Assembly (NCBI GenBank): GCA_002718415.1
Contig: PBEM01000006.1
Coordinates: forward strand, 98,009-162,008
Reading direction: 5' to 3'
DNA from: Chloroflexota bacterium
GTDB taxonomy: Bacteria; Chloroflexota; Dehalococcoidia; Lucifugimonadales; Lucifugimonadaceae
DNA: 64,000 nt
Under the pieces are notes generated by a model. That model saw only the letters and a list, made by a program, of their open reading frames with translations. It was not told the DNA's origin and searched no databases. Of the stretch, positions 8,692 through 50,261 are shown in pieces. Position 1 is the stretch's first letter; each line of letters starts with the position of its first letter. Both the position numbers and the translations under genes were made by a program.

Positions 8692-9153
8692 ATGGTTATT
8701 ACATCTGGAAATAAATGTCCTGAATTTGAGATCGCCCATCATCTCGATAGTGTAGCAAAATTAAGTGATTACAAAAATAAAGTATTAATTATTGCTTTTC
8801 ATCCTTTTAGTTTTACAGGAGGTTGAACTGTGCAAGTTGACGGGTTCCGTCATCATTGGGAATATTTACAGGAAAATAATATAGATCTCATCGAAATAAG
8901 CTGTGATCCGATACCATCTCAAAAAGCATTCTCAAATATGCTAGCTGGCATACCATTTCCAATGGGTTCAGATTTTCATCCACGTGGATTAATTTCTCGC
9001 CAATTCGGTGTATATAATGAAGAAAAAGGTAACTCAAAAAGATCTGTATTTATAATAGATAAAAAAGGTATAATAAATTTTTCAAAAGAATATGAACCGG
9101 GATCGTTACCAAAGATTGAAGATTTGAAGGAAATATTAGATAAATTAATTTAA
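8692..9153 (+). CDS. Peroxiredoxin with UGA at the peroxidatic position (predicted selenoprotein)
   Basis: AhpC/TSA (Prx) family peroxidase that reduces hydroperoxides. The ATG follows the RDD stop directly and the frame runs to 9153, interrupted once by TGA at 8824-8826. Read through, it gives 153 residues with Sec at position 45 inside the Prx active site PxxxTxxC, here P38-FSF-T42-GG-U45. Upstream residues (SGNKCPEF, LSDYKNKVLIIAFHPFSFTGG) and downstream ones (TVQVDGF, EISCDPIPS, R103QFGV, FIIDKKG) are both family-like, so the two parts form one protein. A GC-rich hairpin follows at 8838-8852. Cys9 and Cys71 are candidate resolving residues. Sec-containing Prx are known in marine bacteria. 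The thiol reductant partner is not evident. Confidence 0.88.
8838..8852 (+). promoter_or_regulatory. Candidate bacterial SECIS hairpin of the peroxiredoxin gene
   Basis: TGACGG pairs with CCGTCA (6 bp) around a GTT loop that begins 17 bases after the UGA. Bacterial SECIS elements are coding-region hairpins just downstream of UGA, often with a G at the first or second loop position, which this one has. It is much more GC-rich than its surroundings. Confidence 0.65.
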
Positions 9154-17738: not shown

Positions 17739-18926
17739 ATGTCCATATCGGGTGAATGGTTTATTCCAAAAAATTTAGAGTTCCAAAAAATTAAGGTTCG
17801 AGGACCTACAGAATGGGCCACTTTTTCGTTATCTGATTCAAATGGAATATCAGGACAAGCTGAAATCACTTCAACTCAAATTGGAGTCTCAGTTACATCA
17901 CTTATAGCTAAATTAGCAGATAATTTAAGAGGTAAAAAAATCTCTTCTGATTATGATGTTATAAGTTTTAATAATATTTCAGAAAAATCATTAGAAACAA
18001 ACCTTCCTTTAGCTACAGCTGTAAGTGGATTACGCAGTGCCTTATCTGATGCTCTTTCAAGACAATTAAGGATTCCATTGTTTTTATACATACGATTATT
18101 AATGAAAGATTCTGAAATAAAAAAAAGTAAAGTGAAACTTTATGCAAATATAAATCGCTCCATGCTTCCTAACGAATTTGGAAATGTTCAACGTACACCT
18201 GAAATTTTTGGAAAAATGGCGAAAAAAGCTGTTGAAAATGGTTTTAAAACCATTAAATGTGCTCCTTTTGATGAATGTAAACCGGGATATAAAAAAAAGG
18301 GAGTCCCTGCAGAAGCTGAAATAGGTTTAGATAGAGTAAGAGCTATAAAATCTGTAGTAGATCCAGAAATAAATCTATATATTGATTGCCATTCTAGATT
18401 TGATGAAAATTCTGCAAATTTTATAGCTAATGAATTAATTGATATGGGTATAGATTGGTTCGAAGAACCTGTAGATCCTATTAAAGAAAAATTAATAAGT
18501 CAAAAAATAGTTTCAAATTGTAATGTTCCAGTTGCCGGAGGAGAAATGGGGTATGGATTATCTACATTTATTGATTTAATAAATTCAAATTCATTAGATA
18601 TTGTAATGCCAGATATTAAATTTTGTGGAGGGGTAATCGAAGCCTATAGAATTGGAAAAGAATTAGAAAACATAAAAAAAGGAACTGTTTCTATACATTG
18701 CCCTTCAGGTCCTATTTCTCTTTTAGCTAGTGCGCATGCAACATTAGCTTTCGGAAATATATTACCATTAGAACATGCCGTTTATGAAAACAATTGGCGA
18801 CATAAAATTTTAGAACCATTTGAAATTATCACAGAAGGAAACTTAAAAATACCTGACGGTGAAGGACTAGGAGCAAAAATAGATCCTGCAATAATAGCTT
18901 TTTATGGAAAAAAATGGTCAGAATAA
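17739..18926 (+). CDS. Divergent enolase-superfamily protein
   Basis: 395 residues, distantly related to mandelate racemase/muconate lactonising enzymes. The capping domain is visible at the N-terminus (WATFSLSDSNGISGQAEI). Barrel residues are K173 (TIKCAPFDE), D216 and H218 (YIDCHSRF), E242 (WFEEPVDP), E269 (VAGGEMGYG) and H320 (SIHCPSGP), so a complete metal site and plausible acid/base residues remain. A GGGGAG ribosome-binding site lies 7 bases before the ATG. Its end overlaps the thioredoxin-like UGA gene by 13 bases. The substrate is unknown; it is clearly a different subgroup from the other two paralogues. Confidence 0.78.
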   Translation: MSISGEWFIPKNLEFQKIKVRGPTEWATFSLSDSNGISGQAEITSTQIGVSVTSLIAKLADNLRGKKISSDYDVISFNNISEKSLETNLPLATAVSGLRSALSDALSRQLRIPLFLYIRLLMKDSEIKKSKVKLYANINRSMLPNEFGNVQRTPEIFGKMAKKAVENGFKTIKCAPFDECKPGYKKKGVPAEAEIGLDRVRAIKSVVDPEINLYIDCHSRFDENSANFIANELIDMGIDWFEEPVDPIKEKLISQKIVSNCNVPVAGGEMGYGLSTFIDLINSNSLDIVMPDIKFCGGVIEAYRIGKELENIKKGTVSIHCPSGPISLLASAHATLAFGNILPLEHAVYENNWRHKILEPFEIITEGNLKIPDGEGLGAKIDPAIIAFYGKKWSE

Positions 18927-19366
18927 TAACACAAAAAAATAATATATCTTTAGTAACTTTTATTATCTTTTATATTTTAATTTCAGGTTGTTATACAAAT
19001 AATAATTCAGAAAAAATTAGTGATATCTCTAAAAAAATTGAATCAAATTTAGCAGAAAAGCCAACATTTATTGATTTTTATTCAGATACTTGACTTGTTT
19101 GTAAGGCATCGTTACCGGGATTAACGACATTAAAAAAACGTTTAGAAAATAATGTAAATTTTATCACCTATGATATGGATAATTCAGATTCTGTCGAAAA
19201 GTTAAAAATGTATAGATCAAATGTTGTTCCAACTTTTATAGTTTTAGATGCAAATGAAAAAATTATATGGAAACAAATTGGTGGAATATTAAATTCTTCT
19301 CAAGCTTTAGATGCGCTTTTTGATTGTTATACTGAAGAAAACTCTAAAATAATTCCTTGTGAATAA
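18914..19366 (+). CDS. Thioredoxin-like lipoprotein with UGA in the redox motif (predicted selenoprotein)
   Basis: Frame from ATG 18914 to TAA 19366 with a single internal TGA at 19091-19093; read through it gives 150 residues. A lipoprotein signal (hydrophobic residues 11-25, lipobox LISG-C26) is followed by a thioredoxin fold: FIDFYSDT-U60-LV-C63 replaces the usual WCxxC motif, and the cis-Pro loop NVVPTFIVLD and the final strand with IGG follow. Sec60 and Cys63 give a UxxC redox pair on the outer face of the membrane, probably a thiol-disulfide reductase. It overlaps the enolase-like gene by 13 bases, which suggests coupled translation. No alternative product is evident: the ORF that starts at 19175 lacks half the fold. 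Confidence 0.87.
19109..19127 (+). promoter_or_regulatory. Candidate bacterial SECIS hairpin of the thioredoxin-like gene
   Basis: TCGTTA pairs perfectly with TAACGA (6 bp) around a seven-base loop CCGGGAT; the loop begins 22 bases after the UGA, within the spacing known for bacterial SECIS elements. The loop is G-rich, though its first G is at the third position rather than the first two. Confidence 0.55.
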
Positions 19367-19437
19367 AATTTTTCCCATAACTTTTCTAAAAACATTATTG
19401 TAAACTTCATTATAGAGGTTTCAAAACTAAAATAATT

Positions 19438-20373
19438 ATGTCCAGCAATAATAAAGAAAGATTAGCTTATTTTAACGGAAAGATTGTACCCGAATCAGTT
19501 GTAAAAGTTCCTTTTCGTGACAGAGGTTTCAAATACGGAGATGCTGTTTTTGATATGACACGAACATTCAATCATAAAATTTTTAAATTAGAAGGTCATA
19601 TAAAAAGATTTTATAATTCACTTAAATATGTACAAATTGATCCAGGATTATCTGAAAATGAAATGGTAAATAAAACCAAGGAAGTCTTTGAAGCAAATGC
19701 TCATTTATTAGGAGATGATGATGATTTTTGGGTTGGACAAAGAGTTTCTAGAGGGATTGATTTAGTAGGGGGAGATATGTGGGATACAGATGGAGGCCCA
19801 ACTGTAATAATAGAATGTATGCCTCTACCTTTGAAACCAAGAGCTAGATTATATAGAGATGGAATAGACGTCATGATTCCTTCTACTAGAAGGATTCCAC
19901 CTGAATCTATAAGCCCTAGAGCCAAATCTCATAATTATCTTAACTTAATTATGGCTGATCTAGAAGTAAAGCCTCAAGATCCTGAAGCATGGGCTATTTT
20001 ACTTGATAATAGAGGTTTCTTAACAGAAGGTATTGGATCAAATATTTTTACAATTAAGAATGAAACTCTTTATACTCCTAAAGAACAGTATGTTTTGGGA
20101 GGAATTTCTAGAGAAACAGCTATAGAACTGGCTGAAGGTTTAGGATTAAAGGTTATTGAGAAAGATATAGATATTTTTGATGCATTTACAGCTGATGAAA
20201 TATTCCTTACTTCTACATCATTATGTATTTGTGGTGTTAGGTCAATTCAAGGAAGAAAACTTCTTCCAGAAAATCAGGCTGCAGGTCCAATTACTAAGGC
20301 TTTGATGAACGCTTATGTTGATTTAGTTAAATTTGATTGGATTTCACAATATCTAAGAAGATTAGAACAATAG
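19438..20373 (+). CDS. Class IV aminotransferase (branched-chain/D-amino acid type)
   Basis: PLP-dependent fold-type IV aminotransferase, 311 residues. Key elements are PFRDRGFKYGDAVFD near residue 25, the PLP lysine in SPRAKSHNYLNLIMADLEV near residue 163, LLDNRGFLTEGIGSNIF near residue 185 and the C-terminal LTSTSLCICGVRSIQGRKL. It could be IlvE (branched-chain amino acids) or a D-amino acid or R-amine aminotransferase; the sequence alone does not decide. It follows the thioredoxin-like gene by 71 bases and precedes a serine hydrolase. Confidence 0.85.
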   Translation: MSSNNKERLAYFNGKIVPESVVKVPFRDRGFKYGDAVFDMTRTFNHKIFKLEGHIKRFYNSLKYVQIDPGLSENEMVNKTKEVFEANAHLLGDDDDFWVGQRVSRGIDLVGGDMWDTDGGPTVIIECMPLPLKPRARLYRDGIDVMIPSTRRIPPESISPRAKSHNYLNLIMADLEVKPQDPEAWAILLDNRGFLTEGIGSNIFTIKNETLYTPKEQYVLGGISRETAIELAEGLGLKVIEKDIDIFDAFTADEIFLTSTSLCICGVRSIQGRKLLPENQAAGPITKALMNAYVDLVKFDWISQYLRRLEQ

Positions 20374-49763: not shown

Positions 49764-50261
49764 ATGAACGAAACTAAACCTGTATATATATCGAATATAA
49801 AAATCAAACCTGAAAAAGGTGCTGTTAGGCATGCTTTTTTGCCTCCAAATAATAGTGAGGTAATTTTTGGTGTACACAGTGAAATAGCCGAACATTATGG
49901 AGCTGATCCTTCAAACATAACAGATCCTATGCCAACTACACTGGATTATATAATTGCTGCAACAGGCGGCTGAATGCTTGGAACATTTAGACGGGCACTT
50001 GCTGTTCGTGAAATTCCCACTGGAAGGGGTTATCTTATTGCAGACGTAAAAGGTGAAGTTTTCAATGAAAAAAATAATGTTTTAAAAATCAAAAACATTA
50101 AAATTTTATATAATCTTACTATTGAAAAAGATTTGTATGATGAAAAAAAGGAAGCTATAGATCGTGCTCTTAATCATCACTCATCTCAATGTCCAGTACA
50201 TCTTTCTATAGGTGATTCTATTAACATCACAACAGATATAAAATATAAATTCCTAGATTAG
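49764..50261 (+). CDS. OsmC-like protein with UGA at the first catalytic Cys (predicted selenoprotein)
   Basis: Frame from ATG 49764 to TAG 50261 with one internal TGA at 49971-49973; readthrough gives 165 residues. OsmC/Ohr proteins reduce organic hydroperoxides with two cysteines on separate helices. Here the first is Sec70 in IIAATGG-U-MLGTF and the second is C143 in HHSSQCPVHLSIG, both in the right context. Each half alone lacks one catalytic residue. The ATG directly after the UGA (49974) is an internal Met, not a separate start. Sec-containing OsmC-like proteins have been described from marine metagenomes. It follows the UxuA-like gene by 1 base and precedes a TPP enzyme by 7. Confidence 0.87.
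49991..50009 (+). promoter_or_regulatory. Candidate bacterial SECIS hairpin of the OsmC gene
   Basis: ACGGGCA pairs with TGTTCGT (7 bp, two G-U) around a CTTGC loop that begins 25 bases after the UGA. Position and size fit a bacterial SECIS; the loop lacks G at its first two positions and other pairings are possible, so this is the weakest of the four. Confidence 0.45.

Follow-up and report, generated by a model that had tools for sequence, protein, structure and literature searches.

A thioredoxin-like lipoprotein gene with an in-frame UGA codon encodes a probable surface-anchored selenoprotein in an uncultured Chloroflexota lineage

Introduction

An in-frame UGA codon is located at position 19091 of the window, by which we mean the whole stretch of 64,000 nucleotides (nts) of a Chloroflexota genome analyzed here. 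The question raised by this locus is whether the codon is read as selenocysteine (Sec) and, if so, whether the product is a thioredoxin-like protein that carries Sec outside the cytoplasmic membrane. An initial annotation of the window proposed both, as the UGA appeared to replace the first Cys of a thioredoxin motif in a protein with a lipobox, and regarded surface selenoenzymes of this kind as uncommon. Here we compare the gene with its relatives in the same bacterial family, and consider the decoding of the UGA, the fold of the product, its anchoring and its relation to known selenoproteins.

Results

The gene and its in-frame UGA codon

17739 to 18926, plus strand: enolase-superfamily (MR_MLE_C) gene, the upstream neighbor (Pfam).
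18914 to 19366, plus strand: thioredoxin-like lipoprotein gene, putative selenoprotein of 150 amino acids with Sec at residue 60 (translation and Pfam).
19091 to 19093, plus strand: UGA, putative Sec codon at the nucleophilic Cys position of CxxC (translation and comparison of homologs).
19100 to 19102, plus strand: Cys63, the second Cys of the motif, invariant in the three members of the genus.

The frame begins with ATG at 18914 and ends with TAA at 19364-19366, and the single TGA within it falls in a T-U-L-V-C motif (U60 and C63). TGA is an ordinary stop codon in the window, where it terminates 9 of the 47 long ORFs, and therefore the code used here is not one in which UGA specifies Trp.

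Homologs were sought in 76 genomes belonging to the same bacterial family, and 56 of these contained some match to the thioredoxin query. Close homologs were found in two other genomes of the same genus, G023 and G024 (62% and 44% identity, respectively), and both orthologs keep the UGA site, the N-terminal signal with its Cys and a C-terminal Pro-Cys. Residue 60 was compared among 34 homologous loci, consisting of 30 fetched from the family search and four further TGA-flagged matches (L145, L146, L147 and L075). It was UGA in 9 and Cys in 24, and one locus (L038) was unreadable; because the four added loci are all UGA forms and weaker matches beyond the 30 were left out, this ratio of Sec to Cys is biased toward Sec. 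The pattern used initially to find homologs demanded Cys or UGA and was blind to other residues, and the loci that it missed were then aligned without this demand, by which L035, L036 and L043 were found to have Cys, with L038 unread. The site was never Trp among the homologs read.

The reading of UGA as Sec in place of Cys is supported by this alternation of UGA and Cys, the position of the only in-frame TGA being occupied by Cys in relatives. Two findings would have spoken for a different reading, namely homologs that start after the UGA and a site lacking both Cys and UGA; instead, the homologs start far ahead of the UGA, and one or the other is present in 33 of the 34 loci. A nonsense mutation, or a sequencing error, in a pseudogene would agree with the lack of selA, selB and tRNA-Sec in the assembly that contains the window (see below), but the same UGA occurs in the two genus genomes and in six further homologs of the family, the frame is intact, and the protein is homologous to those of G023 and G024 on either side of the UGA. 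Conservation already contradicts a pseudogene, which we consider extremely improbable. Judging from these sequence comparisons, the UGA-read thioredoxin gene at 18914-19366 is real and correctly read.

Thioredoxin domain

19229 to 19231, plus strand: Pro106 of V-P-T-F, which we take to be the cis-Pro position of the thioredoxin fold.
19358 to 19360, plus strand: Cys149, C-terminal, part of a Pro-Cys present in all three members of the genus.

Two Pfam models, PF00085 (Thioredoxin; 35.3 bits, cut-off 23.5) and PF13098 (Thioredoxin_2; 34.2 bits, cut-off 27), match the product, and both matches run across residue 60. The structure predicted for residues 36-150 from an input of 14 sequences had a mean pLDDT of 83.5, and a prediction with three sequences only, for which the mean was 44, was not used. 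Comparison of the model with the PDB gave 493 matches with E ≤ 0.001; thioredoxins ranked highest, and the C-terminal domain of DsbD and StoA were also among the matches. The assignment as thioredoxin-like is thus borne out by the Pfam matches and by the predicted structure, which together support a thioredoxin fold. In an NCBIfam scan of five proteins, general thioredoxin models were matched only far below their cut-offs, and the viral contigs scanned gave nothing beyond distant thioredoxins. Cys149 is a possible third redox Cys.

The initial annotation also drew attention to Thr in the place of the Trp that usually precedes the motif. The Thr is present, but it is not specific to Sec, as this residue is Thr or Ser in the Cys and Sec forms alike (29 aligned rows). 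The absence of Trp is therefore a trait of the family rather than a mark of Sec.

Selenocysteine machinery

A selB gene was found above the cut-off in 55 of the 76 family genomes, G023 and G024 among them, and in all seven of the other genomes with a UGA homolog, and selA was above the cut-off in three of the eight genomes searched (G024, G066 and G068). Neither selA (NCBIfam model) nor selB was found above the cut-off in the assembly that contains the window, G000, which is 74% complete. A SelA-like PLP enzyme in this assembly passes the broad cut-off of the Pfam SelA model but fails that of NCBIfam selA, and the SelB candidates, all below the cut-off, are other translation GTPases; these were rejected. 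The same genome has selD (L014, C6:43348-47283) with an in-frame UGA at locus position 1531, within S-A-G-U-A-G-K, at a site presumed to be that of the catalytic Cys or Sec. With a standard ORF caller, this selD gene is given a start downstream of the UGA.

tRNA-Sec was above the Rfam cut-off in 58 of the 76 family genomes, although some of the weaker matches are probably tRNA-Ser, and in none of the three genus assemblies (G000, G023 and G024), where the top candidates checked with ARAGORN were tRNA-Ser or tRNA-Leu. The completeness of G023 and G024 is 86% and 71%, and by our own arithmetic three independent misses at 74, 86 and 71% would be an event of about 1%. It must therefore be assumed that the region is absent from all three assemblies or that the tRNA has diverged. 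In two relatives, a tRNA-Sec is located about 100 nts after a match to the thioredoxin query (G066:C76 10633-11019 and G068:C8 377369-377760).

The absence of tRNA-Sec from the genus assemblies, together with the missing Trp before the motif, would be in accordance with an alternative code, in which UGA stands for Trp or some other amino acid, or with read-through that does not involve Sec. Nevertheless, UGA serves as a stop codon in the window, the site is Cys in the 24 relatives mentioned above and never Trp in those read, the selD gene of the same genome has UGA at what we presume to be its catalytic site, and both selB and selA are present in the genus. We regard reassignment or read-through as very improbable, only marginally less so than a pseudogene.

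Other UGA-containing genes in the window

8692 to 9153, plus strand: peroxiredoxin (AhpC/TSA) gene with UGA at 8824 (AhpC-TSA, 94.6 bits).
49764 to 50261, plus strand: OsmC-like gene with UGA at 49971 (35.8 bits).

Four stretches of at least 200 nts in the window have no ordinary ORF of at least 110 amino acids, and three of the four hold genes that are open when UGA is read through, namely the lipoprotein gene and the two listed here. The UGA of the peroxiredoxin gene lies within T-G-G-U and is followed by a GACGG-GTT-CCGTC hairpin. On the evidence of sequence, the peroxiredoxin and OsmC-like genes are taken as the second and third selenoprotein genes of the window, and they support Sec decoding.

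In the three genes, CGGG starts 17-25 nts from the U of the UGA (8824, 19091 and 49971). This tetranucleotide is rare in the window (31% GC), and it is found at +15 to +32 of 21 of the 2379 TGA triplets in the window, the pattern having been noticed after seeing the data. It is missing in the selD gene of the same genome and in the second UGA gene of G023. A role for CGGG as a genus-specific core for recognition by SelB is possible.

The hairpin downstream of the UGA

19109 to 19127, plus strand: presumed SECIS hairpin with a 6-bp stem and a 7-nt loop, the loop being 21 nts after the UGA.

The hairpin (TCGTTA / CCGGGAT / TAACGA) is 19 nts long and starts 15 nts after the UGA. Its six Watson-Crick pairs are kept in all three genus genes, with one double change from U-A to C-G, and it is the only stem of at least five Watson-Crick pairs common to these genes within 264 nts from the UGA. 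The codons that form it are rare in the window (TCG 4.5%, CCG 6.7% and ACG 4.1%), with G024 having GCG (5.1%) for ACG. When synonymous codons were shuffled with the proteins kept, a six-pair stem common to the three genes and at this distance from the UGA was obtained in 0 of 5000 shuffles with each of two null models, and with the gene of the window alone a stem was obtained in 165 and 57 of 5000, respectively. Covariation in the hairpin, which the initial annotation had suggested as a check, consisted of the one U-A to C-G change, and the corresponding shuffle was not significant (164 of 500, with three sequences). The folding stability of the region was ordinary in comparison with shuffled sequences (z = 0.53), and the codons of the hairpin did not clearly exceed other codons in synonymous identity.

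According to the available part of the published description, bacterial SECIS (bSECIS) elements are defined by four constraints, namely a loop of 3-9 nts together with an upper stem of 4-16 bp, a distance of 16-37 nts between UGA and loop, an early G at loop position 1 or 2, and an MFE of at most -7.5 kcal/mol (PMC13188914). The present hairpin falls within these ranges in loop (7 nts), stem (6 bp) and distance (21 nts) and outside them in the first G of the loop, which is at position 3, and in energy, which is -5.5, -6.9 and -5.8 kcal/mol in the three genus genes. A subset of bacterial SECIS elements fails the published model, as far as the same part of the source describes (PMC13188914). An Rfam search of 18700-19600 gave no match, and no one common hairpin was seen in the five Sec forms of the other genera (G040, G043, G052, G053 and G059).

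The low stability and the two departures from the bSECIS model would be explained if the hairpin were a product of chance and Sec were inserted through a different downstream element. We consider this improbable, as the codon shuffle gave no such stem with either null model, the stem is unique among those shared, and the CGGG core also follows the peroxiredoxin and OsmC UGAs, in comparison with the low frequency among TGA triplets given above, although this last comparison is post hoc. The hairpin is kept as the presumed SECIS element.

N-terminal signal and anchor

18914 to 18991, plus strand: predicted signal peptide with lipobox LISG-C26, Cys26 being invariant in all three members of the genus.

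The first 25 residues resemble a signal peptide, and LISG precedes Cys26, as judged by eye against the lipobox pattern. The sequence ahead of Cys26 is variable among the three genus genes, whereas Cys26 itself is constant. The lipobox is present as had been claimed, with the N-terminal signal and the Cys kept in both genus relatives, and an extracytoplasmic, lipid-anchored Sec is supported at the level of prediction. The gene for LspA was found in G024 and in G040, and not in G000 or G023. selA and lspA are about 3 kb apart in G024 and are in a similar order in G040, and hence the lack of both from G000 and G023 would fit one missing stretch of assembly.

The protein could also be a selenoprotein as described in which the N-terminal signal stays uncleaved and itself serves as the anchor, in place of a lipid. 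Relatives at the family level look transmembrane-anchored, the -3 residue of the lipobox in G024 is Cys, an atypical residue at this place, and lspA was not found in two of the assemblies as noted. In contrast, Cys26 is invariant despite the varying sequence that precedes it, G024 does have lspA close to selA, and the single assembly gap could explain both losses. We judge the uncleaved anchor to be unlikely, if slightly less so than a chance hairpin, and the lipid anchor on Cys26 is assumed below.

Gene neighborhood

18914 to 18926, plus strand: 13-base overlap with the enolase-superfamily gene (from coordinates; the same in G023).
19438 to 20373, plus strand: class IV aminotransferase gene, the downstream neighbor (Pfam).

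The order of the enolase-superfamily gene, the lipoprotein gene and the class IV aminotransferase gene is kept in G023. The overlap, described earlier as an odd pairing, is real, and translational coupling is likely. In G024, however, an ORF of 253 amino acids (L074 5459-6220) lies between the enolase-superfamily and lipoprotein genes and overlaps both by a few bases, and the pairing therefore looks positional rather than that of a functional pair. No obvious redox partner gene was seen beside the lipoprotein gene.

Interchange of Sec and Cys among anchored thioredoxins

In G040, a genome in a single contig, the anchored thioredoxin is present with Sec in one copy and with Cys in another (L145 and L150). 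G023 has a second UGA thioredoxin (L075 2160-2641, minus strand) with a hydrophobic N-terminal anchor, in which no lipobox was seen, and so anchored Sec thioredoxins, as read from their sequences, come in two forms in this genome, one with a lipobox and one with a hydrophobic anchor. The transmembrane-anchored thioredoxins of the family (L145-L150 and L075) resemble the lipoprotein in having a homologous domain with Sec and Cys exchanged at the same site, and differ from it in having a hydrophobic N-terminal anchor in place of the lipobox and in lacking the C-terminal Pro-Cys. By this comparison, the lipoprotein is a paralog of the transmembrane-anchored thioredoxin of the family, which likewise occurs in Sec and Cys versions. 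In a tree of 30 domains, the Sec rows fell in several clusters and four changes were needed, at least two of which were forced by well-supported branches; with the long branches, the number of origins is uncertain.

Discussion

Taken together, a genuine lipid-anchored, outward-facing selenothioredoxin, with Sec inserted by SelA/SelB/SelD and the hairpin and acting on extracytoplasmic disulfides, is very probably what this gene encodes. This is carried by the UGA that relatives share or replace by Cys, the predicted fold, the Sec machinery of the genus and the conserved signal with its Cys. The insertion of Sec, the lipidation, the outward location, the direction of electron flow and the substrates are inferred. 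UGA 19091 would be read as Sec by SelA/SelB/SelD, steered by the hairpin at 19109-19127, and the precursor would be exported and lipidated on Cys26, so that the thioredoxin domain stays anchored to the cytoplasmic membrane on its outer side. There it would most likely work as a thiol-disulfide reductase. Sec60 would be the nucleophile that attacks disulfides or other oxidized sulfur of extracytoplasmic partners, Cys63 would resolve the selenenylsulfide, and Cys149 may help.

The source lineage is presumed, as a guess, to be marine and to belong to SAR202, and we take cd02950 to be TxlA. A marine survey (GOS) reported, in the part of the text available, a 'Trx-like 3' group of UxxC sequences that resemble cd02950 weakly and are commoner in marine samples, the table giving 212 Sec and 183 Cys forms, together with Trx-like 1 and 2 (PMC2398784). 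This family shares with the lipoprotein the UxxC motif in a thioredoxin fold and has about as many Cys homologs as Sec forms, and that part of the text names no lipoprotein or organism for those sequences (PMC2398784). Compared by description, the family of the lipoprotein is likely to be among Trx-like 3. Selenoproteome tables list, in the portions available, Thiol:disulfide interchange protein UxxC (PF13098) and Thioredoxin UxxC (PF00085), which have the same motif and are based on the two Pfam models that match the lipoprotein above cut-off; the words lipoprotein and Chloroflex- are absent from both texts (PMC13188914, PMC9312934). The view that a surface selenoenzyme of this kind is uncommon thus holds only in a relative sense, as thioredoxin-like UxxC selenoproteins are abundant in the marine data, according to the part of the survey available (PMC2398784). 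A literature search for a lipid-anchored selenoprotein matched only streptococcal work on 'thioredoxin-like lipoprotein', and one for a selenoprotein in SAR202 found none, with two papers matching SAR202 and selenocysteine. Thioredoxin-like UxxC selenoproteins have long been known, and the lipid-anchored form beside a transmembrane-anchored Sec paralog is a modest new variation.

In Streptococcus pneumoniae, Etrx1 and Etrx2 are surface thioredoxin lipoproteins that are reduced by CcdA and serve MsrAB2, according to the part of the report available (PMC3914529). They have a thioredoxin fold at the outer membrane face, as is predicted for the present lipoprotein, and are the likely working model; they differ in using Cys where the lipoprotein has the putative Sec (PMC3914529, same part). 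Neither CcdA nor MsrAB2 was seen beside the present gene. A DsbD_TM/CcdA partner was not found in five of the six genomes searched, and G023 had a weak match (28.6 bits, cut-off 27.1). An Etrx-like mechanism fed by CcdA is unsupported, as CcdA-type proteins were not found in those five genomes. As a speculative proposal, rather doubtful at present, the genus may have a pair of selenothioredoxins at the outer membrane face, one held by a transmembrane helix and one by a lipid, of which the lipid-anchored one would work free of CcdA/DsbD, with its C-terminal Pro-Cys as the third redox center, as a lineage-specific surface enzyme for the repair or recycling of extracellular oxidized sulfur.

The present analysis describes, from an uncultured lineage, a thioredoxin that contains Sec and is probably anchored at the surface, and it shows interchange of Sec and Cys within one bacterial family, even within one genome (G040). 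The UGA genes described here would be cut at the UGA by ordinary annotation. The results further suggest that the SECIS hairpins used in AT-rich genomes like this one may be weaker than the published model permits, which matters for the prediction of selenoproteins.
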